Position numbers and translations under genes: made by a program. DNA of 61,136 bases from Saccoglossus kowalevskii (Eukaryota > Hemichordata > Enteropneusta > Harrimaniidae): assembly GCF_000003605.2 (NCBI RefSeq), contig NW_003113471.1:167189-228324 (forward strand), read 5' to 3'. Shown here one piece after another: positions 1 through 47,522 of this stretch. How positions within the stretch are numbered: position 1 is the first letter of the stretch; every line of letters starts with the position of its first letter. A model generated the notes under the pieces. That model was not told where the DNA came from. It saw only the letters and a program-made list of their open reading frames with translations, and made no database searches.

Positions 1-1380
1 ATGTCGCTTTCATAACACATTACTCCTCTGGCAATTAAAGACGGGAAAGGCAAAACGATAGAAACTACTGAATTACATATAAACCTGTCAATCATGAACA
101 AAAGCTTGCGTTATCAAACAATACGTATATAGGCGCACCAAACTCTCACTTCAAAAAGACATAAAAAAACGTTACAAAGTGCTCTCAACTCAAAAAGCGT
201 CAGAAGTATTCCGGAAAACAACACATAAACAAAAACAACTCTTAAAACGTCGATATCTCTGTACTCGACAAATCTCAAAACTCTTAAAAAAACACGTGGG
301 GGCATCATTCCTCCCATCATAATCCGTACTCATAAACTCATAAAAACTCCATAAAACATCACAAAACTCAAAACACTGTGTTGCAAATACTTGTCCACTG
401 AGGCGCGCTTAAATCGTTATAAAGGACCTCGCACGTCACTAAATATCATTTCAAAACGAAAATCTGGGCGCCTACATACATACAATTCAACATCACAAAA
501 AAAAACGGTAAGAAAAAACGATAGGAAAAGCAAGCAATACATTACATTACTGAGCAATAGGGTTAGGGTTCTGGAAAAGAGTTCAACGTCCTTGAGTTAC
601 ACAGTGTCAGTTACAGTGTCCAACGAGCGGTTCTCTAAGCAATACACAGATAGCTAAAGTCAAAGTCTATAAGCGTCTTCTTCTTTTGTCGTCGCGTTAG
701 TCCGGGTCGTTCTTTCTCTTCATCTTGTCTTTAATGTCGCTCAATTCTTAATTATTCAGTCCTATACGATACTCGTCCTTCATAAAGGGTTCAGAAGTCT
801 TCATCTCTTCAGCGTTGTACATCGGTGCCATACTGGTAAAGGTGTTAGTCGTCAAGCGCGGTTTCTGAGTCGTCTCTGCCATGGAGCTGTTAGTTCGGTT
901 CGCAAGAAAGACACATCTTCGCCATTTCACTTCTCTTCACAGGATGTCAATGTGTGTAAAACACCTGCCCGGGTTCATCCAAAACGTATCACGGGGATAA
1001 ATTCTGTACTCTCGGGTTCTCCACACTTGTCAGGGGGGAAACTCGTCTCGTCTCTCTATCTCGTCCCCTTGAGGTACGGGATCGGGAAAGTCACTTTAAC
1101 TTTACAGTCAAATAAGACACACACAACGAAATACGTTTCAGCTCTCGTCTTAGTCGGTCAATCGAGCACTCTATAAGACACAGCGCCCTGGGGAAAAATC
1201 CCCAAGACTCTCACAAGGCTGAACCAAGACTCGCCCAAGACTGGACTGCCTCAAGGCTCGCCCCTGGACTGGACTCTCGACTGCACTCTCTCTACTGTGC
1301 TGTGCTCCCCAAGACCAACTCAAACTCTCTTTATTCATTTTCAAAACTCTAACCAATTACAAAGCAGTAAAAAGACTCTA
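1..1380. other. Unclassified CpG-containing stretch, possibly transposon-derived
   Basis: This block differs from the AT-rich sequence after it: it is richer in CpG, and its right part (1171-1356) is C/T-rich low-complexity sequence. On the minus strand a short reading frame beginning MAETTQKPR (about 880 down to 748) continues after a stop into a basic ELSDIKDKMKRKNDPD-like run, which looks faintly coding. I could not assign it to a family. A TTAGGG-like doublet at about 549-562 is isolated. An 18-base string at 46-63 recurs at 25072-25089 inside the Ngaro-like element. The block may be the edge of a retroelement cut by the window start, but this is weak inference. Confidence 0.2.
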
Positions 1381-2772
1381 GGGCGTAACCTTCAATCATA
1401 AAGCCAATCACACTAAGTACTGAATACGTCATATCTTTTGATTAATCGTTCACTACATTAATAACTATGGAATATAAACTGTCAGAATGAATAGTCTAAA
1501 TGGCGGCGGTTATCTGGTAATTAGTTCCAAACCACTGAGCCAAGTTCCGTCCAAAACTTCAAATAGGCCTAAACGATGACAGACATAACACAGCAATTCA
1601 GCTAATAATCAACTAATTAAGTCGGTTAACATATACGCGAAAACAAATTCATGACAGAATTATAGAAGCCGGTACATTTTCTGAACAAACGCATTCAATA
1701 GAAAACATTTATCAACACTATGTTTGCTACAAAAATAAAAGTAGTTAGGTGAAAAAGGTAAAACTACTCAAACAATATCAAACATGTTGACGAGCATTTT
1801 TATTATTTTTCATTTTGATTAGTTTTACTATTAAAAACATCGTTTTGTAAAACTTCCAAAAACAAAGGCAGATATCGAAAAACAAGAAATGCGACATTAT
1901 TGTCCAGCCTACACCATCACAAACAAACATGACAAAAACGGTATTTTCAATAGTCGGAACACTGCCGTATTTGTCTATATCTATTCAGATAAAGTACAGG
2001 TTGTTTAACCTGCTTGGTAACTTGTGCGAATTTCTGAATCATAGATCAATTATTAACTCGTTTACCCCCCAGTTACTACCTTAAAGGCAACCGATAAAAA
2101 AGAGATGTTATTATGAGAAATGTCGTTTCACACAAAGACAATACTGATTAACATTACTCATGCATCCAGGTGTAAAATTTCCATTAACAGACACATATCC
2201 AGACTCGCACTTCAGTTCCGTTCCTATAATGAAAATAAAAATAAAAATATACAATTACAATTTTATTCAGGCGCAATATCAATGGTTTCCGATAGTTGTT
2301 TACTCGATAACAACATAATAATTAAATTTAAATATTCATAATTTAAATAGACAAAACATAACTTGGAATTTCGTATGAAAATATGTCCGTGTTAAAGTAA
2401 AATACATTTGAATTGATGTTCGCATATTTCGTATTTTGTGATCTTTTTCGAATTTTGTGTTGATTTAATTTGATTGTATTTTATCATTTCAAAATAACTT
2501 TTAATATAACCCTTATGATTCTGGAATATGAAAAAAAAATTGAAACAGTACACCCAACTAAATCTGTCTACTTATTGCATTCCCTATGTTGAATTTTAAA
2601 TGTATAAAATATTCACATTCAAATATATGAATAGTTTATTAAATCAATGTAACAACAAGACACTATTATATAAGCAGCTGTGATATTCACAGTATTAGTG
2701 GTAAATATCAATATTATTGTGTAGCATTTGATTAATTTGCATTACATATGTAACTCAACTGATAGAACGTAC
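1381..2772. other. AT-rich non-coding sequence
   Basis: No coding exon, structured RNA or clear repeat was recognised here. It lies 3' of the D8C exon on that gene's strand, so it is probably intron or flank of that gene. Confidence 0.5.
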
Positions 2773-3153
2773 CTGCACAATATGCTAAGTCACAATCGGT
2801 TTCAGTCAAATAATAGACGTAGTAGTCTGAAGAACATGCTTTTACTTTCACAGCGTAAGACCAAGAGCATTTCTCGTCTGGGAAATCTGGGTCATTGCCA
2901 CAAGCATACCCCTCCACGATATCATCGTTTATAGTTGGATGGGTAAAATTCAGATACAGGGGTACATGGGTACCGCAATGATTAATTGGGATGTCATCGC
3001 GTGTCGTCATCTCACCACCTGCAGGGCTTATGAACCTATACCATCCATCATTAAGTTTATTGTCACAGTTAGGTTCGTTAGAATTAGTATAATTCGTACT
3101 TCGCCAGAACTCATCAATCGGTGTATATGAATTACATGGGTCAAACGTGAGTG
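2773..3153 (-). CDS. Internal exon encoding a uromodulin-type D8C domain
   Basis: On the minus strand an ATTTCAG acceptor precedes 3153 and a GTACGT donor follows 2773. The exon is 381 bases (127 codons) with phase 1 at both ends, typical of shuffled extracellular modules. It reads DPCNSYTPIDEFWRSTNYT, then a CD..L..GWYRF block, CGTHVPLYLN, a CSW block, a VKAC block and YYVYYL followed by CDLAYCAG. The conserved Cys pattern, the CGTH motif and the YYVY-L-C-L-YCAG ending match the D8C domain of uromodulin, GP2 and related secreted or membrane-anchored animal proteins, a Cys-rich extracellular module. Several N-glycosylation sequons (NYT, NFT) are present. The reading frame is intact, so the exon is probably functional. 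Other exons of the gene were not found. The full protein could be uromodulin-like, or a multidomain protein with EGF, ZP or CUB modules. Confidence 0.82.
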
Positions 3154-5266
3154 CTGAAATAAAAAAAAATATAAATATTACTATGTGTTACATACAGTAA
3201 ATTGATTAGGTTAGGTAATTATACACATTGGGGTGGGTTTACAATCACAAAACCTGTTGGCATATAATGTGAATAAAGTTGTTGCTGTTGTTAACACATA
3301 ATTATAAACCACACTGTTGTGAGTTTAATCTTCACACTACAAGTTAAAAGGTTTATATGAATCAAAAGATCTTGAGTGATTTGGCAATTGCCCGTAAAAT
3401 ATGTCTCAGTGAAAAAAAGAAAGTTAAAGACGTTACTTTGCAATGATTATAAGTCGTACGTTTGAACCCTAATAGATTGAAAAGCAGAATTTTATAAACA
3501 TGTATATAACAATTTGTTAATACCGATCCCAAGTTTTCATTCAAATTAAAATATTTAAAAATGACTGACGCCATAATGCACAAGCAAATATTCATGAGAG
3601 ATAGCAACTGAAACCATCTACGTATTTAAAATGAAAGGCTTGTTGATTGGATGATGTTGAAGTAACTCATTAATATTAATCATTACAATTGTAACAAACT
3701 AGTGTAATGGGCGGAAGTTAATACTATCAATGTTAGTAACCCATCATTCAATTGACCCGATACAGTATTAGTCTAACAATGAAAGAATTCGCAACTTTAC
3801 CAGTGATGATATTATGACCGCGTTATCTAGCCGTTGCATAAGTGGAGTTGAGTTTGCACCATAATCAAAAGTTTTAATAGGCTCGCTCATTGAGACTCCC
3901 CGACAATGACGTCTCGCAAAACGCAAAAAACATGTCTTAAAACGCTAGACATCTCGCCTAAAACACTTTGTGACCCTCTACGACCCTACATATATTGCGT
4001 AAGAACGATTGTGGGAAATGCTGAATTGTGGGCGGCCCACAATCGATTTTCTTATGGCCCGATTCAATGTGATTTTTAATCCCCAATTCTATGTTTGAGT
4101 ATCACTTAGTTGATATTAGACTTTCCAACCACACATGTTTTTTTTTTCTGGGCGTCAAACGCATATGTATGTACTGTGTTAAAAGTTGTTTTATCCCTGT
4201 CATCAGCTGCCAGTCCGTGCTTTTGATGGGTTATATTTCATTGTTAGTCTAGTGCCTGCTAGTTGTTGTTGTCATTAGTTCGTTGTTTGCGTTTTTGACC
4301 GAGCATTTTTAGGGTCAGTGCCTGCTTTTAATTCTTTAAATTAGCAATTGCACGTATATATAAGTATATATAAGGAACAGATTTTGTTTTATTTACTAAT
4401 CATAAACATTTACTTGATGGTTATGATCTTAGATGTTGTTGCTATTGTCGATTATTATGTCTTCAAGGTAAAGTTGGTAATGATAAATAATGTGTTTAAT
4501 CCACTTGTCCAAAAGCAAAATAATAGTATCATTAAATATTCAATAGTTGAGGGGACACACAATATACAGGACAAAATAAGTGATATACTCTGAAAAAGCA
4601 TGTCTCGTTTCGTAAACAAATTTCGTTTCGAGGTTAACAAATTTAGCTGTATTGCGTATATAGAAATGTTGACACAACTCACGAAATTTTACCAGGATAA
4701 CAATCGATGCGATAATATAACTGGATATACTGAACACGTAAATCATGGAATATGGGAAAAATAAAACAACAATGATACTCGTCTTCGATGTAATTATTTC
4801 TGCAACATTGACAACGTAGCAACATTTACCAGCAAAATAAGCATGGGTACATAATATAAAACAATACAAAATTAGTAATTACAAGAATGTACTGTTTAGT
4901 TTTAAATAATACATTTCTAAATAAAATTACCCTTATTTTGATGTTCTGCAACAACTATTGAATGTGGTATATCTTTTCCCACTGGGGGGGGGGGGGTCAT
5001 CACAATTCCTCTTCTGCATTATGGCAGCTAGACTATTTCGTATTATTAATCAACTGTATACACATGTTTTTCGTGTTTTAAAAAAGAATAACAAAAATAG
5101 TTGGCAATTATAATATTTACTCTGAATTGTCTTAAAGAGGGGTCTTGTCATCAGAGTTTTTTGTTTACATATTTTGTTTTATGTACTGTGGACAAGAGTT
5201 TGGTATGTCTAAGAAATACAATACATTTATTGTCAGCACTTTATATAATGTTTTAGAAATAGTAAA
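3154..5266. other. AT-rich sequence, probable intron or intergenic; G13 tract
   Basis: No exon recognised. It contains a run of thirteen G at 4984-4996. The minus-strand open frame at 4540-4869 is hydrophobic but has no recognisable motif, and I treat it as chance. Confidence 0.45.
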
Positions 5267-5269
5267 ATG

Positions 5270-5560
5270 ACATTAGGCCAGACCAAAAAAATTACTTGTT
5301 CATCGGACCCGCGCGCACGTATCATATCGCATTTTTTGTTTGCGTTGAAAAATTACTTGACCGTTGGCGGCGCTGTTACGAGACTCTCGCAAAGTACGAC
5401 ACTTCAGGCCGAGAGTTGTCTGTGCGTCCCCAAAACGCATTCGTACGATCGGTCGGCTGCTCTATTCATGACAGCAACGTCGACTGCTATCTTTTTATCT
5501 GCATTGCTTCATCAATTTTGTTTCCTGGGTGATGGTTTATACATCGAATAAAAAACTGAG
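5270..5560. other. CpG-rich block upstream of a decayed reading frame
   Basis: This stretch has many CpG dinucleotides (for example around 5305-5470) in a CpG-poor neighbourhood and ends just before the broken reading frame at 5561. It could be the 5' region of an inserted element or a small promoter. Frames crossing it (for example 5267-5551 plus) have no recognisable domain. Confidence 0.3.
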
Positions 5561-5818
5561 ATGAGTATTAACGTTATAGTTTGTGTACGCCCTGAGGGTG
5601 GAAATGTTTTAATGCCAAAAACGTTGATCTCCGTGAATTTGGATCAGACATTTACTGACTTGTTAAGCAATGCATACAAAATGACAGTCGATGTTCTGAA
5701 ATAAATGAAGATTCCATAGAAAAATGTTACTGTGAAACCAGGTACGGGAGTTTTGGTTTGTGATGAATTTAATATGAAGTGCGTTACTTTCACTGACCTA
5801 CCCAAATGTCAGCACTGA
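5561..5818 (+). pseudogene. Decayed reading frame of unknown family
   Basis: From ATG at 5561 a single plus-strand frame reads MSINVIVCVRPEGGNVLMP through an SVNLDQTFTDLLSNAYK block, then a TAA after DVLK, a TAG a few codons later, then VKPGTGVLVCDEF, CVTFTDLP and a terminal TGA. The composition looks coding (mixed polar and hydrophobic residues, no low complexity) and the frame is preserved across both stops, which suggests a protein-coding ancestor with point mutations rather than chance. I do not recognise the family. Because it follows a CpG-rich block directly, a transposon gene fragment is the likeliest explanation. A spliced gene seen only in part is the alternative. Confidence 0.3.
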
Positions 5819-7458
5819 CCCTGGACGTATATTTGGAATATCTAAAGATAAATAAATTGGACCATTGTGCACCAAACTCCACAACAACGGACAGAATGCA
5901 AAGACATGGGGTCAGAGTTTCATGAAAAAACGCTGACCTTAAAAATCATCAGCTTGTTAGTCAACACAGTGAGTTATGAGGCTGTCGACTAAATGTACTT
6001 ATATACATTCAAATATTTAGTTTTCAAATAAAAACATAAAAATAGTATGGCATTATGGTGATTTTATTTAAATATCCACTGCTTATATGACACAAGTTTC
6101 TGCTTCACTTGCAACTTTTATGCAAAAAATGAAAAAAAAAAACCTTTCACTTCTAACTTTTAAGCCAAAAAACAAAAAAACTTTGCTCTTCGCTTCAAAT
6201 TTTAGACCAAAAAAAAAGATTCTTTCGCCGCTCCTTGTCAGTATTGTCAGTCATGGTGACTCAATAACAAACAGTTACGGGCAGCAAGTCTAATCAGTAA
6301 GTATAGTATGACCAAGTGTCGTCATTAAGGTAGAGATACAGTTTACCTGACAGGTATTTTAATTAGTTAATTAGGAAACCAAGATGACCTCCCTTGTCCA
6401 CAAAACTATATATTTTCGGAAAGCTTATTGTATGAATTTAAAAATTATGGTTTATGGGTACATCAGTTTACTATGAAGAAAGTGCCGTCTTGAAAACTGT
6501 CTACCAGTTGTCAATTTTGCAGGGCAGCAGCTCAAATTTCACTACTTCAAGTTTATGCATAAATTAACACCCAGGCTAGTTGTCTGTACGATTGTTGTTC
6601 CACCAAAAAACAATGCCCCGACGGCGTTTTGAAGATAAACACATTGTCAATCATTTGTGAAAATTTCAAAACAAAAGGTCAAAGCGTCTAGGAGCTATTT
6701 TTTTAAAGTTCTGGGATGTGCACTAAAAAGAAGCTGAGATAATTGCTAATTTGCATAACAATTCACTCAGTAAGAAGTTTGCTAATGCTCATAATTAAAA
6801 TGGCTGTAATAGTCCCAAATTTAAATGTATTATCATTCTGTAAAAAGTTAAATATAGTGCATAATATGGAGATCCCGTCATTTCTTTTTTTCACCATGTT
6901 TCTTTTTTATTATTTATGTACAGCCTTGCTAAATCTTGCTATGCATTCAAAAGAGAGAATGTTTGCACCTGTTATCTATACTATAAAATCGTCTTTTGAG
7001 TATGTTCCACTATTCACAATTCTACAAAATTTTAATATAGTCTATAGCCAAGACTGTTTGGATAATAAAAAGCAAAAACAAAAAAATTCACTCCCAAGTG
7101 CCCACGAACCTGCATCTCTACCTTAAGTCAACATCAGTAGCAAACAGTCAAGAATTAGTCAAGCGTTGTACTAAAACACAGAACTGTAAAATAGTTCAGA
7201 GTGACAGTACGAGACGTGTTGACAGCCGGTCAGTTAATTTAAAGATCACAGCCAGTGACAGGATGAGTTTGATTGTGTTTTAAGAGGACCAGGAAAAGAA
7301 AATGAATTCCCAAGTTTACGTATTCGAATAGAATAAAAGAGTTAGTATGTTGTCATGCAAATTTTGCTTTGTGACAGTTTCAACACATACAATATTGTTT
7401 ACATATTGCTTTTATTCCAAGTGGAAAATTCACATCAACACATGTAATTCCTAAGAAT
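5819..7458. other. Non-coding stretch with A-rich imperfect tandem repeat
   Basis: About 6105-6225 holds roughly three diverged units of about 50 bases. Each has a CTTCnCTTnnAACTTTTA-like start followed by an A-rich run. Nothing else was recognised. The 127-codon plus-strand frame at 6743-7126 has no domain signature. Confidence 0.4.
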
Positions 7459-7468
7459 AATACTTGGG
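7459..7468 (+). repeat. Left 10-bp target-site duplication
   Basis: AATACTTGGG at 7459-7468 abuts the left inverted repeat. The identical ten bases abut the right inverted repeat at 11279-11288 in the same orientation, as expected for a duplicated target site. Confidence 0.85.
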
Positions 7469-7656
7469 CAATCTGATTAAATTCCGATGTAGGTATGAGG
7501 CTCAATTTTTTTATAACCCTTTATATTATATTTATTTGTATTTTAGTTTGAATATGTCGATTTTTGTTTTTTTTTGCCGTTAATCAGTTTATTGAAAATC
7601 GTGTCCCAGTCGCCTCTAACTACATCTGACTCAATGCCTATACACATCTCGTACAA
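7469..7656 (+). repeat. Left terminal inverted repeat
   Basis: This segment is the reverse complement of 11054-11278. Shared blocks include CCGATGTAGGTATGAGGCTC, the TATAACCCTTTATATTATAT run, GAATATGTCGATTTTT, GCCGTTAATCAGTT and the CCTCTAACTACATCTGACTC block, ending at CTCGTACAA. Confidence 0.9.
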
Positions 7657-7763
7657 CGAGATCAGTTTTCGACGAGTTTTGTCGACCAATCATAGTGCGG
7701 CTTACAAAAATAGCTGTCTGACTTTGCGCATGCGCCAGACTCATCGTTCCTGGTTATTTCAAG

Positions 7764-7848
7764 ATGGCTGCAAGTAATGTTAGAACCGATGTGAAATCAA
7801 TAGAGGATTCCGAATTTAGTCACTTTTACAAAAACTTAATTATCTTTT
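7764..7848 (+). pseudogene. Putative first exon of the element's helicase gene
   Basis: ATG at 7764 lies about 100 bases inside the left inverted repeat, in the context CAAGATGGCTGC. The frame reads MAASNVRTDVKSIEDSEF to NLIIF and meets a GTGAGC donor-like site at 7849, leaving phase 1. Joining to the AG acceptor before 8295 keeps the frame open (Cys-Val-Gln-Glu-Gly-Gly) into the helicase P-loop exon. The phase match and the position next to the terminal repeat support this as exon 1. Without splicing the frame stops at 7889. No domain is recognised within the exon itself. Confidence 0.45.
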
Positions 7849-8294
7849 GTGAGCAATCACGATTGATGTATGTAATTCATTTGAGATAATTCGGATTTCA
7901 ACTTTGATGACCTTGTATTACCACAGGTGAGGCGGCGTTACTCGATCATGTTAACGAGTCGCATTCGACGCAATATAAGCCATACGTGCATTTTGTTTCG
8001 ACTTTATACTGATACAGTCATCACGATCTAACTATTGCATTATGAGTTGATGTATTACGACCAGGCAATGTTTTTGTGAGTCTATGATAAAGCTATGGCT
8101 TTCATGTAAGTAATTTTCGTATTTGTATTTAGCTTTTCGACGACATCCGAGCGCCTGTGAGTAACAGTAACAGTTTTGTCTTCATGCCGTGACTGTGACC
8201 TATATGCATGAACAAGTAACGTGAATAATTTATTTGCCAAGTCAATTTTTTTTATTGCGATATATTAAATGTGCACATTTCCCTTTTCTTTAAG

Positions 8295-9448
8295 GTGTGC
8301 AAGAAGGAGGCACTAACATATCTGTTATCAAAAATAATGTCCAAGCCATCCTGCCAACTGGATTTGGTTAAATCACTAATCAGTAATCTATCCATGTATA
8401 ATTCAGGAACCTCGTCCTGGTTATCATAGTTTATCCTGTGGTTTCATTAATGAAAGTTCAGGTAAGATTTCCACTCAACATTAAAATCATAGTTTGCATT
8501 ATGTGTGTTATAAATTGTAGAAGTTCATGTTGAATGATCATTGGAATACGGTTTAAAAGTGGCTTAGCCACTCATATCATATTTTCTGATAAAATGCGAA
8601 TATGTTAACATATTCCCCCACTACTGCATGTGTACAGAGCTGTGTTGGTTCATTGAGTTATTTGGGCAATTCATTATAAAAGTGCTCATTCTAACAAAAT
8701 TTCAGTGTACATGTTTTATTAGAGATTTTTTTATTCAAAATCCTAACTTGTACACGTTTACCTTCAAATGATAATTTCTGTGATCTTTTTTGTAGGGGTG
8801 AAAAACCAGATGAAAAAAGCAGGCGCAAAACCCAACAAAGTTCATTCAAAGAATTTTTATGCTGTTTCATCTGATGTTACAGTCCTTGCACTGACCACAA
8901 CTGCCTCAAAGTCTCTACAGTCCCAGTTGAAAGACAGCCTCATTACATTATTCCAGATTGCAAGACTATAAACATTTGCCCAAATAGGGAACATTGGATT
9001 GTCAGTCGTAAAGACTCCTAGGGACGGACAGTGCATCCATATTTTATTGGATGGTTGGCAAAATAAGAGAAGAGAAAGACACATTCCCACAGACAATTAT
9101 TTATTGTTCATTAGCTCTTTATCATTATTTCAAAGACGAGTATTCCCAGTCAGTTTTTATATGCGAATGTACTATAGGGAAACTGGCAGTATTGTACAAG
9201 AATCGCATTCAAAAGAAATAGCTGAAGTGTCCAACTAAAGTTTGAGATTAATATTCTGCCACACAGCCTTTGGTATGGGCATTTTTATCAAAACAACTCA
9301 TGTACTCCATTTAGATCCCTCTTACGATATTGAAAGTTATAATACAGGGGTCGGGTTGAGTTGGTAGAGATGATGAACCATCTCAGCAGTCTTGTTTTAT
9401 CATGTAAATTAAAAAATTATATAATAAATGTAACAGTATGTAGGAGGG
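8295..9448 (+). pseudogene. Decayed SF2 RecQ-like DNA helicase of the transposon
   Basis: RecQ-family landmarks occur in order on the plus strand. Motif I is AILPTGFG (8345-8368), followed by KSLI only after a one-base shift. Motif Ia is VIIVYPVVSLMK (8420-8458), ending at a GTAAGA donor. Motif III is VLALTTTASKSL (from 8882). Motif IV is TIIYC (9093-9107). Motif V is CHTAFGMGI (about 9260-9283), followed by a THVLHLD-PSYDIESY block. Motif VI is QGSG-stop-VGRDDEPSQ (about 9345-9383). Motif II (DExH) is not intact; a V-E-V-H remnant may lie at about 8518-8530. At least three frameshifts and several stops show it is dead. RecQ enzymes unwind DNA 3' to 5'; in helicase-bearing transposons the protein is thought to assist transposition. 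The motif order makes the identification strong, while exon borders after 8461 are uncertain. Confidence 0.82.
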
Positions 9449-10361
9449 TTAACTTATTTGAAAATTTTGCATCAAATGAAGAGATCTGTGACATGAAGAG
9501 CAATAAACCACATCACCTAAATAAGTGACATCTTGGTTAATGTCATGAAACAGCATATATTTACAGGTATATTAAGCCATTAATTTATTTTCCAGCTGTT
9601 TTCATAAGCATAACATGTTCATCTGCTTAAAACAAACAATTGACAGAACAAGGTTTATTTAAGTATCAATAAATATTTATCTCTCAATAAAAAATATATT
9701 TGTCAATCACTAATTTACTGAAAATAACAAAAGTATTTGACAGCTATTCATCACAGTTTTAGAATTTTAATTTTTGTTGTTGCTAAGTTAACAGGTATGT
9801 GGCTACCTAGTAGTTAATTGTGATGGTACTGTTTATCAAAATAGCACAACTATTCCCAAATGCCTGTTGAGAATCTTAGTTAAATAACAAATTGATGGAT
9901 ACTAAAGATACCTGGTGGATCTTTTCTTTGTGTTGCCAAAGATATAAACTAAGAAATTTTGCATCAAAAACACTGACTAAAAATAGATGGAATCAATTCT
10001 GATCAGACATAGACAAGAACAATGAAGTAATCAATAATTATATAAAAAAACTGAACTGGTATAAAACAAATATAGTACAGCATCATGTCTAAGAAAATAC
10101 TAATTAACATGATAAATTATTCCATGTGCTGCATTAATCTCATAACGTAAATTGTATGAAATTTGCATTACAAGAGTTGGCGAAAAAAAGTACACTATGC
10201 TTGCAGCCTCTCAGCTGAGATAGCTGTGCTGTTAGCAATGCACATCAATAAATACAATATAAGTGATTAACATAAATATTATGTAAATTATATAAATATA
10301 TACTATCGACACGCGAATACTAGTAGTTTGTTTCTAAAACTGAATCCACGGCAAGAGTTCC
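9449..10361. other. AT-rich interior of the helicase element
   Basis: No transposase motif, domain or tandem repeat was recognised. The missing transposase would be expected here, on the minus strand, following the exons at 10989-10892 and 10580. Confidence 0.4.
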
Positions 10362-10504
10362 TTTTGTACCCCCCCATCCCTAACCCTAACTCTAACACTC
10401 ACTCCCAGTTATCCAATTCATTTGTATATGCCCCCTCTAGATAACTATATATGTCATTAGGAGGGGAGTGCTGGAGGGTAGGGTTAGGGATGGGGGGTAC
10501 AAAA
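10362..10504. mobile_element. 143-bp foldback insertion with telomere-like arms
   Basis: The left arm TTTTGTACCCCCC-ATCCCTAACC and the right arm, ending GGGTTAGGGATGGGGGGTAC-AAAA, are near-perfect reverse complements over about 45 bases with a loop of about 50 bases. The arms contain CCCTAACCCTAAC / GGGTAGGGTTAGGG. The unit interrupts the minus-strand exon of the host transposon after GKSY, so it inserted after the helicase element. It is probably a small foldback MITE. Confidence 0.6.
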
Positions 10505-10580
10505 GTAACTTTTTCCGAATCCACAAATAACACATTCCTCTGCCCTGGAGGATAATTGTTTCTGGGGTGTCACGTTCTTC
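10505..10580 (-). pseudogene. Second exon (start) of the element's right-end gene, possible zinc-binding transposase N terminus
   Basis: A TTTTTTTCAG acceptor precedes 10580 on the minus strand. Spliced to the exon ending at 10892 (phase 2), the frame reads Lys then KNVTPQKQLSSRAEECVICG and GFGKSY before the foldback insertion. Beyond the insertion the same strand resumes GTLAVDSVLETNY and stops. The C-x2-C pair could begin a multi-Cys zinc finger of the kind found at transposase N termini. That is an inference from two cysteines and the element context only. Confidence 0.35.
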
Positions 10581-10891
10581 CTGAAAAAAACAAACAAACA
10601 TGGAACATGGTGAATTGATAGCGTTGTTGGCCCGATCGTAAACATGCGTGTTGACGGTGACCAATCTGTCCACCGGGAGCAGTAGAAAAAGCATCCATAC
10701 CTCATGAATTCTTAGTTTAGAAACGATCGACTAAAAGGAATTTTCAAGTAAAGATCGACTTGAAGGTGATACCGGATCACCGACGCCGATCCAGAGGCAA
10801 AACAAAAATATTACTGGCACATGTAATTCATCTGCCACCAAACAGAAATGAAATAAAATCAAGGCCAAACTGGTTAATGAATGCTACTTAC

Positions 10892-10989
10892 TTGTTATTT
10901 TAGACAACGATCCATCATTGAAAAAACTGCGTTGTTATTAAGTTGTATGAGGTCCAGCTCACGCAAAAGTAGCTGCCATACGCCGCCAT
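10892..10989 (-). pseudogene. Putative first exon of the element's right-end gene
   Basis: ATG at 10989 (context AAACATGGCGGCG) lies about 65 bases inside the right inverted repeat and opens 32 codons, MAAYGSYFCVSWTSYNL to LSKIT, ending at a GTAAGT donor in phase 2. The next AG acceptor (before 10580) continues the same frame. This mirrors the arrangement at the left end, where a start codon also follows the inverted repeat directly, giving two convergent genes each driven from a terminal repeat. Protein family not recognised. Confidence 0.4.
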
Positions 10990-11053
10990 GTTTTGAGTAA
11001 TGCCCAGGCGCGTTTGTAACCCGTGATCTGATTGGCTGGTCCCTGGGCGAGAA

Positions 11054-11278
11054 TTGTACGAGATTTGTATAGGCATTGAGTCAGATGTAGTTAGAGGCGT
11101 CTGGGACACGATTTTCTAAGAACTGATTAACGGCAAGAAAAAACAAAAAATCGACATATTCAAACTAAAATACAAACAAATATAATATAAAGGGTTATAA
11201 AAAAAAAATATTAATAAAAAAAAAAAAAAAAAATTGGAGCCTCATACCTACATCGGATTTTAATCAAATGACAGATTG
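11054..11278 (-). repeat. Right terminal inverted repeat
   Basis: Reverse complement of 7469-7656, about 37 bases longer because of expanded A/T runs around 11200-11235. Ends CAGATTG at 11278. Confidence 0.9.
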
Positions 11279-11288
11279 AATACTTGGG
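11279..11288 (+). repeat. Right 10-bp target-site duplication
   Basis: AATACTTGGG, identical to 7459-7468, directly outside the right inverted repeat. Confidence 0.85.
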
Positions 11289-12104: not shown

Positions 12105-14472
12105 GCCACATGTGGCATACGTAGAAAATACAAATACACTCTATAATTAGATGAATTAACACACCAACTTACTGTGTTCACACCATGTACCATGCGTCTT
12201 CGAAAGTACACGTCGCTGCCAAGGGTGGTACAGTGACCATGACATCCGGGAGTGTCACACGACTGTGATCTAGTGGAGCCGTACACGTACCACTTTAGCT
12301 AGCAGGGTTTGTTACTGAACGGTTGCTTGTTTGCGTTCCTGTTGTTGCTCAAAAAACGGATCCGTTTGTTGCATATAGACCAGTCACTAATGATACAGTT
12401 TGGTAGTTTGTTGGATGGCGGTGACAATGATGGTGGTGGTGGCGGCTATATGGCGCCGTTTTTGCATTTATTCATGTAACATTTTTTAATGAATTTAAGC
12501 TTCTTATATGTAAAAAATGTGGTAATTTTTCATTATTAATGAATGATATTTCCAATCAATTATATAGAATTCTTCCTTTATCGTGTTGGCTGTGTTTATA
12601 AATATTCTGAAATAATCTTGATTAATATTTATAAAAAAATACTTTCATTACTTAAATTCTATTCTATAGATATAAAGATCGCAGCATTTATTTACAAACC
12701 AAGGATCAACGTATTATATTCCTTATTTATATTGATGGGAATTATATATAAACAATTGTGATTAAAAATGTACGTTATAATATTTACATTTCATGCACAA
12801 AATGCATTGTTTATAAATAAATACCATTATCTTTAAGTACAGACTCGTATATTTCATTGCTAAATAAATTCGAATAAGCGCATTGAATGTTAATGCCAGA
12901 ATGGTACATGGTATCTGTATGCAAATAATTCGAATATAAATATGGTTTAAGTCCTATAGATTATAATAACTAAATAATGAAAATTGAAATTTTCTGCACA
13001 CTCGGCACGATTAAAATAGCAATTATATAGCAAAAACGTTGAAACGGATGTGTTCGATTCATAAATACATAGTTTTGCTACGCTAGAGATGTTAGCGTTG
13101 ATTCATCGCTTTTACATTTGAGAGGTTTACTTACAATTTCAAACAACTTTATAAATATGATCTTGTATTGTCGCTGAGGCCCTCTGTAGTTTAGATATGT
13201 TTCCATATTTCTTCTTCGTTTTTTACGCTGATGATGCTATTACGAAAGACATGGTTACTGATTGTTTTGCTCGGTATGTATTTAAATGAAGTTTATTGAC
13301 AGCTGTCTGATGTATTATGCAGCATTAAAATAGTCCCATGACTTGTTTTTAAAATCCGCTTACTTTGTGGCTCACAATTTGATATTTTTGGTTTCATTGT
13401 GGTTTCATTGTTTTCACTTCTGACCTCCACGTCATTTTCTACGATACGCACAACATGAATTCGGTAAGAGCTGTTACATATGTGACTTTTATTGTTAAAT
13501 TTCTGGTTTATTTTAAATATTTTTGGAATTGAATTTAGGCGCCTTTGTCTATTTATTATATTGTCATACTGACCGAGTATTCAAATAAAAATTGACATGA
13601 AAAGGTCAAACCCAGACATTTTCTATAAAAGACAATATTTTGTGCTTTAAATTCTTCATACAGGTTTCTTAAAGCTGTAAAAAATCAAACAAAATCAATC
13701 TTGCGGAAATATGATTTTTCAACCAAATAAAATGACGTAATAGGCAGTTTAATCGAAATTCATGAAAACCATTTTCTGTTGATATATATTTAGGCTTACT
13801 AATATGTTTGGTTTCAAAACATAACTAGTAACAGTAAAATAATTATGTTACCAAGATAATTTTAGCAATATTCTTTATGTCATCGTCAAATAACTACCCA
13901 TGCTTTTAGAATAATACCAGCAAAATATACAAAACTTTTTTTTTCCAAAAATATACAAAACACACACTACTAAAAACATTTATGTATATCATGAAAATAT
14001 ACCTAACTTGATTAACTTGTTCAGAAAGGTAAAACCCATTATTACATATGTGCTGCAGTTTATTTTGATTCGTCCTTGAAATCAAAATCGGTATTTACAC
14101 ACCCCATATGCAAATGAGGTCTGAGAGCAAACAAAGAAGACCCTTCAGGAGTACCGTTTTTCGAAACATAGCAGAAATAAACAATATTTAGAAGTACGAT
14201 ATTTTCCCCTTAGGGTACATGAATATACTTGCCGAGTGGAATGAAATTTAAACAACAGTAATGGTACTTTTAGGCAGTCACTTATTTTGACTAAAACTAA
14301 TTTGCATATCACCCATGCAATAATGTTTTCGGTATTTTCACGGTCAATATGCAAATGAACATGGTATTTCCATTGGCGACCGAACTACTTTTTTTGTAAA
14401 CAAACTTCGTCTGCTATTTTTATCCGGTTCAAATCGTTCAGCAAAATTTTTGGCATATTAGGAATACATCAC
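12105..14472. other. AT-rich non-coding sequence upstream of the Crypton gene
   Basis: No exon recognised. ATATGCAAAT-type octamers recur at about 14106, 14300 and 14348 in the last 400 bases. The 5' part of the Crypton element presumably lies here but has no recognisable coding sequence. Confidence 0.4.
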
Positions 14473-15596
14473 ATGGAATACTACGATTGGGAAAACTTAA
14501 TGTATGCTGACCACCTAGAAACTGAATTTTATTACCCTGAACGGCTCTCGGAAGATCGACCCACAGTAAAATCAGCGATTGCTATGGAGCCGCAACCATC
14601 AACATCGATGTTGCAGTGTATTTTAGTATTTGGGAATTTGCCTAACAAATTACAACCAATTACGAAAGATCAAGAGGAGGCGTTACTGAAAGCTGGGCAA
14701 CTTGGTGTAGACTCCGCAACAGCCATGATCAACACCGTCTGGTATAACAACACAAAGCTTTTCGGTTTGCGTGGAAACAACGAACACCGTCAGATGGAAT
14801 GGGGTGATGTAGTCCTACAGAGTGACGAAAATGGTGAGTTACTAGTGTATAATGAGAGACTCACCAAAATTCGTCACGGGGACTCGGAGCCTGGTAATAC
14901 TAGAAGCTTTGCCCCGAAGGCGTATGCTACACTGAAACCCCCGGACATTTGCCCGGTTAGAGCCTACAAAGCATACGCAGCTCATCAACCAGACAGAATG
15001 AACTGTAGTTCAGCACCATTCTACCCTGGAATTGAGTATGTCCAATGTACCATTGCTAAGGGAATATGGTCCCGAAATCAACCTATGGGCATAAATAAGC
15101 TGACTACGATCATGAAGACAATGTCGAAAGCGGACTTAACTGGCAAACTGAGTATATATAACCACAGCGCACGTAAAACCTGCGTTCAATGCCGGGGTTC
15201 AACGTCTTCTTGACGCCGCTGTACAACCAAACACAGCAGCACAACCAAGTGGACACAAAAATGTGAGCAATCTAAACCGATACTCAGTTCCAAATAAAGA
15301 TCACCAACGCCAAATGAGCAACATTTTATCCGGAAACCAAGACTCTTTCAACCCACGACCAGCAAGCCACATCACAAACGTAGGCGTGCAGCTCATCGAC
15401 GACCGCTGTCGACGAAAGTCAACCTGTCAGTGGAGTACCGCAGCTGCACGGCATGTTTGCCAATGCACAGATCTGTGGAGGAACATTTAACTTTAACATA
15501 AACTGTGTATCACAGTCGTCCAGTTCAAGTTCCGGTTCTGTCGTGGTCCCAACTAAACGTCCACGAGTTATTTATTCGGACAGTGACTCAGATTAG
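14473..15596 (+). pseudogene. Crypton-type tyrosine recombinase (DUF3504-like), two frameshifts
   Basis: ATG at 14473 opens 246 codons, then the frame shifts near 15184-15200 and again near 15405-15430, ending at TAG 15594-15596. The reading contains GVDSATAMINTVWYNN, LFGLRGNNEHRQMEWGDV, NTRSFAPKAYAT, CPVRAYKAYAAH, APFYPGI and a PMGINKL block. It then has NHSARKT (the H-x-x-R box), SGHKN (His) and LNRYS (candidate Tyr nucleophile), then MFANAQICGGTFNFNIN and a Ser-rich tail ending IYSDSDSD. This is the Crypton recombinase-like domain shared with KCTD1/QRICH1/ZMYM-related proteins. All recombinase signature residues are present, but the H-x-x-R box and the His/Tyr lie in different frames. The N-terminal DNA-binding half seems short. 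The indels are either real decay or assembly errors; the rest is well preserved, so the copy is fairly young. Confidence 0.85.
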
Positions 15597-22060: not shown

Positions 22061-22134
22061 TAAATTCATTTACACAATATGTAAATAGTAGAAACATGAA
22101 TTTGTAATGTGAACAGCATTGAACTACAGATTAC

Positions 22135-22233
22135 CTTATCAACTATGTTTACTTTAGCCCCTGCTGACAACAGTGCCTTAATTGATTTAGTATGACCATA
22201 CTCAGCTGCATAGTGTAGTTGAGACTTGTTGTC
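22135..22233 (-). CDS. Ankyrin-repeat exon 7 (sixth ankyrin unit)
   Basis: TTGTTTCAG acceptor before 22233; 99 bases, phase 0 at both ends; GTAATC donor after 22135. It reads DNKSQLHYAAEYGHTKSIKA then LLSAGAKVNIVDK, a 33-residue ankyrin unit (two helices plus the D-VD turn), although the usual TPLH is SQLH. Only 156 bases of intron separate it from the previous exon. The intron sequence just past this donor resembles that past the previous exon's donor, so the two exons probably arose by local duplication. If the donor were skipped, the frame would add about 22 codons and stop at 22066. Confidence 0.85.
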
Positions 22234-22389
22234 CTGAAACAAGTATAATAACAGGTGACGAAATGACAAAAATAAGATGTAAAGAAAACTATACGACTGT
22301 ACAAGCTGAACATAATTAGTATGGTGACCCAAGACGTAATTAGGAATGCATATGTGAATTCGCAAAATAAACAGTTTGGCAAACATTAC

Positions 22390-22479
22390 CTTATCAACTC
22401 TGTCTATGACTTCTGCTGACAGAAATGCATCAACTGAATTTTTATGATTATTTTCTAATGCACAATAAAGTGGGGTCTT
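22390..22479 (-). CDS. Ankyrin-repeat exon 6 (fifth ankyrin unit)
   Basis: Reads KTPLYCALENNHKNSVDAFL then SAEVIDRVDK, ending at a GTAATG donor. The best acceptor is GCTCAAG before 22479, giving 90 bases (30 codons), three codons shorter than the other units but still phase 0. The usual G-A/G-x-N segment is replaced by SAEV, making this the most diverged unit of the set. It may be a weakened repeat or a capping repeat. Confidence 0.72.
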
Positions 22480-22490
22480 CTTGAGCAAAA

Positions 22491-24699
22491 ACAAATAATA
22501 ATTGTGTTAAATGACATGAATGTGGTATAAATTGTGAAATGTCTAAACTATTATCTGTACAATATGCTTTGAAAAAAATATACAACATCATGCCCTTTCT
22601 AATGTACACATGTTATCTCGTTCTGTATGACTGTTGATGCCAGTCCCAAACCTGGTAAGTCAAGTGATTTTTGAAAATATACATAGAGAGAAAAAAAAAA
22701 TGCCCTGCCTGATGTATATATACCCTTGTTGACTGTCTGTATGGACACACTTGCTTGTCTCTGACCCGACCAAGTGAATGTCAGGTGTATACATAGAGAG
22801 AAAAAATATCATCATGCCCTATCTGAAATACCCATGTTGACTGACTGAACTAACCCCAAATTTAAACTATGGTAGTTTATATGGTTGTTGCCAATGATAA
22901 TAAAATGTGTTATCTTAGTACAATATATACCAAGTATCAAAGTAATTAGTAGTTTTCAAGCAACAGAAACAAAAATATTTGCCAAAATTAGAAAATTGAA
23001 AATACTGACATGAAAATGCAAAATCTGACAGAGGACCACTCAGGGCATATACATACCAAGTATCAACACAATTGAGCTGGTAGTTTTCAAGAAGTTAGAA
23101 ATAGCACTTTTTTACCAAAAATTACAAAAACATTCATCAAAATTAGAGAACTGAAGTTATACATAGCACATCTGTATGAGAGTTATAGATATATCTCACA
23201 AAATATTGCGATATATCTACATCACCACATATCAATACAATATTTAGTCATACTTCACAGAAGATTGTGAGTTATGTTAAATGAACAACAAATTTATTCC
23301 AAAAAAATTATATTTGAAGAAAAGTACATTTATATAGAAAGTACATTTTCTTTTTCAAAATCATTATTTCTACTCATGTTCTTTAGTATACCGTGTTTTT
23401 TTGTACCTAGACGACGCAGTTGTCATAATAAAAAAATGAGTATTGGTGAACAAAATAAAGACAGAAACAGACTTGCTTTAAATCTGATTGAGAGTCTGCT
23501 CTATTTTGCTAACCATGGCATGCAAACTCTATTATAACAGTGGCCTTTAAATAGAATATACTGTAATCAGCACCATCAACACAATAAGCAAATATGAGAC
23601 AATAATGGATACATGGGCAACTAACTATGGTGATAGGCAACTTGTTGATTAAAAACCTTTTATCAGGAGACGTTGCCTGACTCACCTTTGCCATTATCTC
23701 AACTCATGTCTATTGAATTGTGTTTATACTATGATAAACCACGCCCACAAAGAAAAGACAAATCAATTGAGGGTTCCGAATTGATAACGTTCGCGCGTGC
23801 ATCGTTTGTGCCCTTGCGCATGTTGCGTGATCTGGGGTCAACAAACCGAAAGGTAGGACAGATTTTGAATGTTCCGAATTTTTCTAATCGCAGTGCACCG
23901 AACATCACAGTTTCCAACTCGCAACTTAAAAAATCACCTGAAATAAAACTGCCATCATCTTTCAACTAACTCGTACCAGCCTCTGAAATTTTGCACACTA
24001 TTCTGTCTAAGCAAGAATAACGAGCATGCAAATTATCTTTGGCTATAGCGTAATATTTTCACATTTTTTATGGGTAGTTGAAATACTATGTCACGGTCAT
24101 ATTTACTGTGTGAAACACACACGTTCCATCTCAATTCCAGTCCATTTTCTATGAAAAATCATCTTTTTCAACTGGAAATCAACTGTTTCTCAGCTGTCTT
24201 AAATAGTTCTTCTCGCTGCCTTCGTTTGTTCCCACCAACACTCACTCCGATATCTTTAAAAACTGTTTAAAATATGACGCTGACTTCTTCCGGGTTGCAT
24301 GTCTACAAGTGCTATTTTTACATTTTATATTTTTGTTCTACCCTTGCCCGTTGCTTGGTTGGTTACGCACGCGCAAATAGAATTAAATCGCGTCTGACGG
24401 TAATTCGGGATTTGACAAACCCAGCCCAACTTCGGCTACATCAATAGGAGCGCCCCCCCTTACCGAATTTCTGGCTCCGCCAGTGTAAACATGTTTTCTT
24501 TATATTTTTGAACAGCACTGAGCATGCATTTCGCCCAATACAGGTCTGGTTTCCATACACATTTTGATAGCGAGGTATCATTTTCGACAACTTTGCCCAG
24601 TATAAGGTATGAGTTAAGACATGTTCTTATTTAGACTGACTATCGTCATTTTTGACAATTTTGTTTAACCACTGAGACAAGTAATGCTTTTATTATTTA
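22491..24699. other. Intronic sequence of the ankyrin gene with short tandem units
   Basis: 22570-22850 holds three diverged units of about 105 bases sharing TATACATAGAGAGAAAAAA, ATGCCCT-CTGA and TGTTGACTG. 22915-23160 holds two diverged units sharing ATACCAAGTATCAA and TAGTTTTCAAG. No exon was recognised. The remainder to 24699 is unassigned; 23740-24480 has more CpG and may be old transposon sequence. Confidence 0.4.
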
Positions 24700-46109: not shown

Positions 46110-47522
46110 CTAATTATAATGATAAATAAACATAGATTCAGACATTAATGGACTTAAATATAATACAAGTATCACATAGTAGTAAAATGTAGAGGGAATG
46201 CTGGGTATAAATTTTGACACATTGTACAGCACATAATAATAACTGTTTTCAAAGACTTGAGTTTAAATGTCAATGTCCCAAACACTTTTACACCAACAAT
46301 AGTCTGCTTTATTTGTGCTTAATTTGTTTATACCAAATAAAATTACTACCACACTATTCAATAATGACAACATAGCACTCGCTATATTTATTGTGAAAAT
46401 TTTGACATGTCAATGCTGGTAAATGTATAATTAAACTGGAATTGTTTTTGATCTTAAATAAATATGATAGTTATTTGTTCATCTTTTAGACATGATTTAA
46501 ACAATCATTATTCTGTATTCCAGATTATTACCACAGCGATATACAACAAAACTTGTAATTTTGTATACTGTTTGTTTGTTTGTTAATTACTTACTATTTC
46601 ATAATTCTGTTATCGTTAACCGCTATACATCGGTAAAATGATTGAAAGCGCAAGTAGAGATTAATCAGCGGTAGTTTTACAGCGAGCTATTCCCAGCAGC
46701 AATCAGTTTTTTTATAATACAACTCCGTAATCAATAATGTAATCAATGTAATGAAATGTCACACTTATCTCAAATTTGGACCGTGACCCCAATTTTATTT
46801 CACATACAAAGTATCAAAGAATTACAAAAAAACAGCAAGACTAGGACCTGCAGATTGTATATGCCAAAAAATAGGCTGGGTTTTATTCAAAACTATACTA
46901 GTGAATTTCTATAATTTATTACAAAAAACAAATTGTTAATGAGAACCAAACTATTATTATCTGACTTCTTTTGTTTTCTGTGGAATATGAATAATATTTC
47001 TGGCTTCAAAGTCTGCGTTTGAATTTTCCATGTCTGACAGCCATAGAACATACCTTGCTAGTTAATATGGCAATTTGTTATGCCAATCAAGCATATTTTA
47101 ACATTTTAACTGACAAAAGTAGTTGGGTGACTTAGACATGGACTTTTAGTTCGAATATGCAAACAAGTTATATGCAAATCTGTTTTCTACAGTAACTTGT
47201 ATCAAACCAAGATCACAACTTTTTGAACATACAAAGGTTATATAAGTGTCAAAACATCATGTGGAACTCGACAAACATGAAAATGTTTGACATACAAGAG
47301 CCAATGAAAACACTGGAACCATTACACCAACGCTATTGTATTAACAATACTCCGCATTGGCCTTTTGAGTGCTTTGTATGTAGTGTTTTTTACTGATTTT
47401 TAATGAGTACAAAAAAGGAATATTCACTGGATTTGTTTTCACTGAATCATCCTTTCAGCAGAAATATTTTACAATAAGTGTAGTACTTTGGAAATTTGTT
47501 ATGCTAATTACCTCAATTATAA
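46110..47522. other. Intron 1 of the ankyrin gene, AT-rich
   Basis: No exon or recognised mobile element. Confidence 0.45.

Follow-up and report, generated by a model that had tools for sequence, protein, structure and literature searches.

What kind of element occupies positions 7469-11278 of the stretch of Saccoglossus kowalevskii DNA analysed here, and does the helicase sequence that it carries belong to a working system? The stretch, called the window for simplicity, comprises 61,136 nucleotides (assembly GCF_000003605.2, contig NW_003113471.1, positions 167,189 to 228,324); it ends at the end of contig C728 in the 572-Mb assembly of 4,830 contigs in which all genome searches were performed. 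A first-pass annotation had described a complete helicase-bearing transposon, likened it to the helicase-bearing Academ lineage and singled it out as a candidate for an unusual system. The analysis indicates that the element is very probably an old derivative, non-autonomous through deletion, of a cut-and-paste DNA transposon of the AcademH type, and that it was presumably mobilised in trans. This reading is carried by the ends and target-site duplications of the element, by the pairing of transposase and helicase genes across the genome, by deletions and lesions that the copies share, and by helicase decay without codon-position bias. AcademH is reportedly a lineage of the Academ superfamily set out by Kojima in 2020 (Mob DNA 11:15).

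The element is 3,810 bp long and terminates in CAATCTG (starting at 7469) and CAGATTG (ending at 11278). Its inverted ends of approximately 190-225 bp were delimited by self-complementarity, together with the genome search for the left repeat (7469-7656, plus strand) and the alignment to a longer relative, C14, for the right repeat (11054-11278, minus strand). They contain arm pairs that are 94% (7561-7656/11054-11149), 96% (7506-7573/11138-11205) and 78% (7471-7537/11203-11269) complementary. Comparison of the flanks revealed the perfect 10-bp duplication AATACTTGGG at 7459-7468 and 11279-11288. A genome search with the left end returned at least 48 match rows; copies of the repeat are thus many, probably more than counted, as only the best 40 of 142 candidates were scored. 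Duplications of 9-10 bp were present in all ten copies with both ends readable (the window element, L011, L012, L013, L014, L023, L024, L026, L027 and C14), eight of them exact and two (L012, L013) with one mismatch. A damaged left end excluded L015 from this count, and the right end of L014 was placed two bases past the BLAST end. In swapped-flank controls, in which the left flank of one copy was compared with the right flank of another (n = 90), the longest match, exact or with one mismatch, was 6 bp. The duplications are therefore not a product of chance (10/10 copies versus 0/90 controls above 6 bp), and the complete element with long inverted repeats outlined in the first-pass annotation is confirmed by its ends, its arms and these controls. 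The duplicated sequence varies from copy to copy, whereas Kolobok elements duplicate TTAA.

The left-end query, which the first-pass annotation had proposed, recovered one full-length relative, C14:262794-274593 (L009 and L010; called C14 hereafter). It measures 11,800 bp, has the same ends as the window element with inverted ends of approximately 190 bp, and is flanked by the 9-bp duplication CATTCCGCT. Pieces of a transposase open reading frame lie on one strand of C14, a RecQ-like helicase occupies the opposite one, and the two genes are convergent. Ten pieces of this single full-length copy were scanned against Pfam: three transposase pieces matched DUF6589 (PF20231; E = 4.1e-5, 0.044 and 2.3e-7), which we take to be the Academ transposase, and no piece matched a MULE (Mutator-like element) or MuDR model. 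The helicase strand matched DEAD (E = 1.1e-10) and Helicase_C (E = 2.4e-14), and the C-terminal open reading frame of the helicase (361 aa, no stop) had BLM, RECQ1 and WRN as its best PDB matches in phmmer. Copies of the terminal repeat might, as the first-pass annotation allowed, have encoded a clearly non-Academ transposase; C14 encodes DUF6589-matching pieces instead.

Seven loci carry the last C14 transposase exon. A protein search with this exon, in which all 17 candidates were scored, gave 10 match rows that were read as C14, C1561, two loci on C3427, C1306, C3659 and C1075. The helicase search of the genome gave at least 103 rows (best 113 of 117 candidates scored). When the two result tables were read side by side, a helicase match was found tail to tail with the last transposase exon, 0.8-4.7 kb away, at 7/7 loci. 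The identity of this exon to C14 falls to 33% in C1306 (L041, L060) and 26% in C3659 (L039, L059). These divergent loci contain long open frames that match DUF6589 (E = 3.9e-29 and 1.9e-11, respectively), each with a DEAD and Helicase_C helicase tail to tail with the DUF6589 frame, and the C1306 helicase additionally matches the RecQ zinc-binding domain. A DG-R motif and one E, invariant in the transposase pieces of C14, C1306 and C3659 (3/3), are candidate catalytic D/E residues. Because a convergent helicase is found at all seven loci, divergent families included, the helicase looks like a standing partner of the DUF6589 transposase and not like a chance capture.

These findings bear on the possibility that the element is a MULE that captured a fragment of a host RecQ helicase. 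Duplications of 9-11 bp and long inverted ends are hallmarks of MuDR, and the long inverted ends and 9-10-bp duplications seen here would suit such an origin. Nevertheless, we consider it highly improbable: C14, with the same ends, gives DUF6589 and, in the ten pieces scanned of this one full-length copy, no MULE-type transposase domain, and a single recent helicase capture is insufficient because the pairing holds at all seven loci down to 26% exon identity. The first-pass annotation had also raised a host-gene insertion private to the window copy; this was rejected, since 12 of the 19 other loci with the terminal inverted repeat that were fetched gave helicase matches.

The window element aligns colinearly with C14 in reverse orientation, in blocks of 69-97% identity (76-79% in three long blocks). 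The region of C14 that holds the main transposase exons (C14 approximately 800-8200) is missing from the window copy save for one 43-bp patch, and what separates the two genes (9517-10341) is a non-coding relic with patches alignable to C14. Of the transposase, only a relic of the first C14 piece was found, cut at residue ~70 (10514-10711, minus strand; tblastn E = 1.7e-21), and no catalytic exon. The deletion joints are not private to this copy. In ten short elements, window included, the joint at C14rc 3014 is common to nine and that at 11000-11008 to seven; larger losses occurred in L012, L023 and L026. Likewise, of the 17 loci carrying the first transposase piece, all but C14 and C998 have it truncated at residue 69-70 (15/17), and none of these 15 loci is among the seven with the last transposase exon. 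The short copies are 79-89% identical to one another, and the short family is therefore old. Judged from these alignments, the window copy has become non-autonomous by deletion; it is a dead transposon, assigned by its ends.

Near the deletion joint, a palindromic insertion of 167 bp that resembles a miniature inverted-repeat transposable element was recognised at 10350-10516 from its self-complementarity and from copy comparison. It is flanked by the 8-bp duplication GAATCCAC (10342-10349 and 10517-10524), has the ends GGCAAGAGTT.../...AACTTTTTCC and the arms CCCTAACCCTA. The stretch containing it measures 272 bp in the window copy versus 89-90 bp in four comparable copies, all without the insertion.

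The helicase gene of the window copy is preserved as a relic on the plus strand. DNA alignment to C14 delineates a putative 5' part (7764-8224), in which an ATG at 7764, matched by one in C14, is the presumed start codon. The N-terminal exon relic (8225-8485; E = 2e-10) and the C-terminal exon relic (8728-9516; E = 7e-49) match the C14 helicase in tblastn. The former contains VVSLMK and a PTGFG Walker A motif in which a stop replaces the lysine codon, and the latter motifs III-VI. None of nine single window frames scanned reached a helicase Pfam model, so the relic is visible only through its C14 relative. A LisH_2 match at 9012-9221 (E = 0.0027, below the Pfam cut-off) falls within the relic and was taken as chance. 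The five to six RecQ-type motifs in order that had been noted before are a fair reading, as what we take to be motifs I, Ia, III, IV, V and VI are recognisable, scattered over several frames. The motif II exon (DEVH) had no tblastn match in the window. In the tblastn comparison of the 19 fetched loci and the window, the loci of the genome-wide helicase search lying outside it, C14 alone yielded this DExH exon, barring two matches at E >=3.

Lesions in the helicase relic are common to most of the short family. Twelve short copies were tried, ten of which (window included) retained enough of the C-terminal exon to be aligned to C14. A 1-bp deletion and two stops, read in the frame of C14, occur in 10/10 aligned copies and a 25-bp deletion in 9/9. 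A 5-bp insertion and a 1-bp insertion are each present in 9/10, 2-bp deletions in 8/10 and 7/9, another 1-bp insertion in 3/9, and an extra 1-bp deletion, possibly upstream of the splice site, in 8/9; a further 45 indels are each confined to one or two copies. When the set was enlarged (30 tried, four dropped as too short; L027, L049 and L057 unreadable at the 5-bp site), the 5-bp insertion was found in 16/16 readable copies with the terminal inverted repeat or the cut transposase piece, C14 being set apart, and in 0/8 readable others (C14, L030-L033, L046, L052 and L055). As lesions are common to most of the short family, they are older than most of its copies, indicating that the family multiplied on after its helicase gene had died. 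Private differences are distributed over codon positions 1:2:3 as 106:89:110. The helicase of the short family thus decays without clear codon-position bias, and there is no sign of constraint.

The retention of helicase sequence in many short copies could alternatively mean that the relic is still useful, the short form being a helicase-only element that supplies helicase to its relatives, and the differences of the group from C14 (30:26:39 by codon position) do show a slight third-position excess. Yet the frame-breaking lesions and stops predate most copies, the DExH exon is confined to C14 among the loci compared, and the private differences lack a clear codon-position bias. A functional helicase-only element was therefore rejected on the lesions shared across the short family, and we hold any remaining usefulness of the relic to be very unlikely.

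Several observations weigh against the reading of the window element as an AcademH-type deletion derivative. Two of the three DUF6589 matches in C14 lie below the Pfam cut-off, which only the match at 2.3e-7 passes, and all C2H2 matches, including that of the C14 finger, are below it as well. The DExH exon of C14 reads in two frames, and the intactness of C14 is thus in doubt. The pairing at C1075 is weak (transposase E = 6e-4, helicase E = 4.7e-6), and helicase matches are missing from 7 of the 19 fetched loci. Academ membership itself rests on duplication length, the helicase and DUF6589, whose link to Academ we presume; our literature search turned up no mention of DUF6589. The AcademH assignment is accordingly strong on duplications and helicase and presumptive for the transposase superfamily. 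Finally, L053 (C3647) is without the shared TAA stop and without a 15-bp deletion, in place of which L040 (C3169) has only a 4-bp gap. Since the lesions are non-uniform in this way, the short family did not arise from one fixed master, or some of its copies recombined with fuller ones. A stepwise gain of lesions during the spread of the short family is probable, with recombination as the alternative. That the family moved generation after generation as lesions built up in its helicase gene is possible, if rather doubtful.

The AcademH-type derivation suggests the following course. The autonomous-type form would have been the ~11.8-kb element represented by C14, with inverted ends of ~190 bp, a multi-exon DUF6589 transposase and a tail-to-tail RecQ-like helicase. 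In an ancestor, deletions may have removed the core of the transposase together with the DExH exon and the tail of the helicase, while its helicase gained frameshifts and stops. The short form would then have been mobilised in trans by the proteins of fuller copies, reaching at least 15 loci and duplicating 9-10 bp of target. Cut-and-paste movement with staggered joining is most likely, given the ends and duplications, and the roles of the proteins are drawn from their domain families. The DUF6589 transposase, presumably an Academ-superfamily DDE enzyme, would act on the ends and join them to a target staggered by 9-10 bp; the helicase of fuller copies, if needed at all, would act in trans and might help by unwinding or processing ends.

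Further features of the window lie outside the element. An open frame of 284 aa at 14359-15213 (plus strand) matches DUF3504 (PF12012, E = 1e-21), which we take to be a tyrosine-recombinase-like domain of Crypton-type elements. Another at 2732-3187 (minus strand) matches the uromodulin-like D8C domain (PF23283, E = 8.3e-12) and is perhaps a host gene exon, and an ankyrin-repeat frame is found at 22066-22506 (minus strand; PF00023, E = 4.3e-10). Short matches of 73-76% to parts of C14 at 22969-23162 and 47363-47466 seem to be further repeats that C14 also contains.

The expectation of an unusual system was borne out in part. The element does bear a helicase, and its place in the helicase-bearing Academ lineage is supported by the 9-10-bp duplications, by the DUF6589 transposase and RecQ-like helicase of C14 and by the pairing at all seven loci. 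As a working or undescribed system it falls short: the window copy is an ordinary one, dead and non-autonomous, and its lineage has been described. We know of no test of why a cut-and-paste transposon should carry a RecQ-type helicase. If the stepwise movement is true, the AcademH helicase acts fully in trans or is dispensable at the donor element, 9-10-bp duplications persist without a helicase in cis, and the short family constitutes a natural assay of the role of the helicase. The comparative material comprises one ~12-kb form, several divergent tail-to-tail families and a helicase-dead derivative with unchanged duplication length.

Among known systems, AcademX would belong to the same superfamily as the present element if DUF6589 is, as we assume, the Academ transposase. 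According to PMC10045372, AcademX makes duplications of 3 or 4 bp and AcademH of 9 or 10 bp, a difference linked to an encoded nuclease versus helicase; the duplications and helicase found here thus set the element apart from AcademX. PMC10799480 cites the AcademH paper and fungal copies, and PMC10294476 reports that Academ elements have expanded in bivalves, with a curated set of 100 Academ consensus elements. Least probable of the alternatives is membership in the RecQ-bearing Kolobok elements: a RecQ helicase is present in KolobokH, and that of the rhodophyte Kolobok-1_CCri lies on the complementary strand, the arrangement also found in the present element (PMC9587614), so that the opposite-strand layout alone is undecisive, but the varied 9-10-bp duplications and the DUF6589 matches of C14, C1306 and C3659 speak against it. 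Compared with AcademH, the likeness extends to the 9-10-bp duplications, a helicase within the element, inverted ends, the host being an animal, and a transposase of DUF6589 type that is presumed to be that of Academ; the window copy differs in lacking a catalytic transposase exon, in its dead helicase and in belonging to an amplified non-autonomous derivative.

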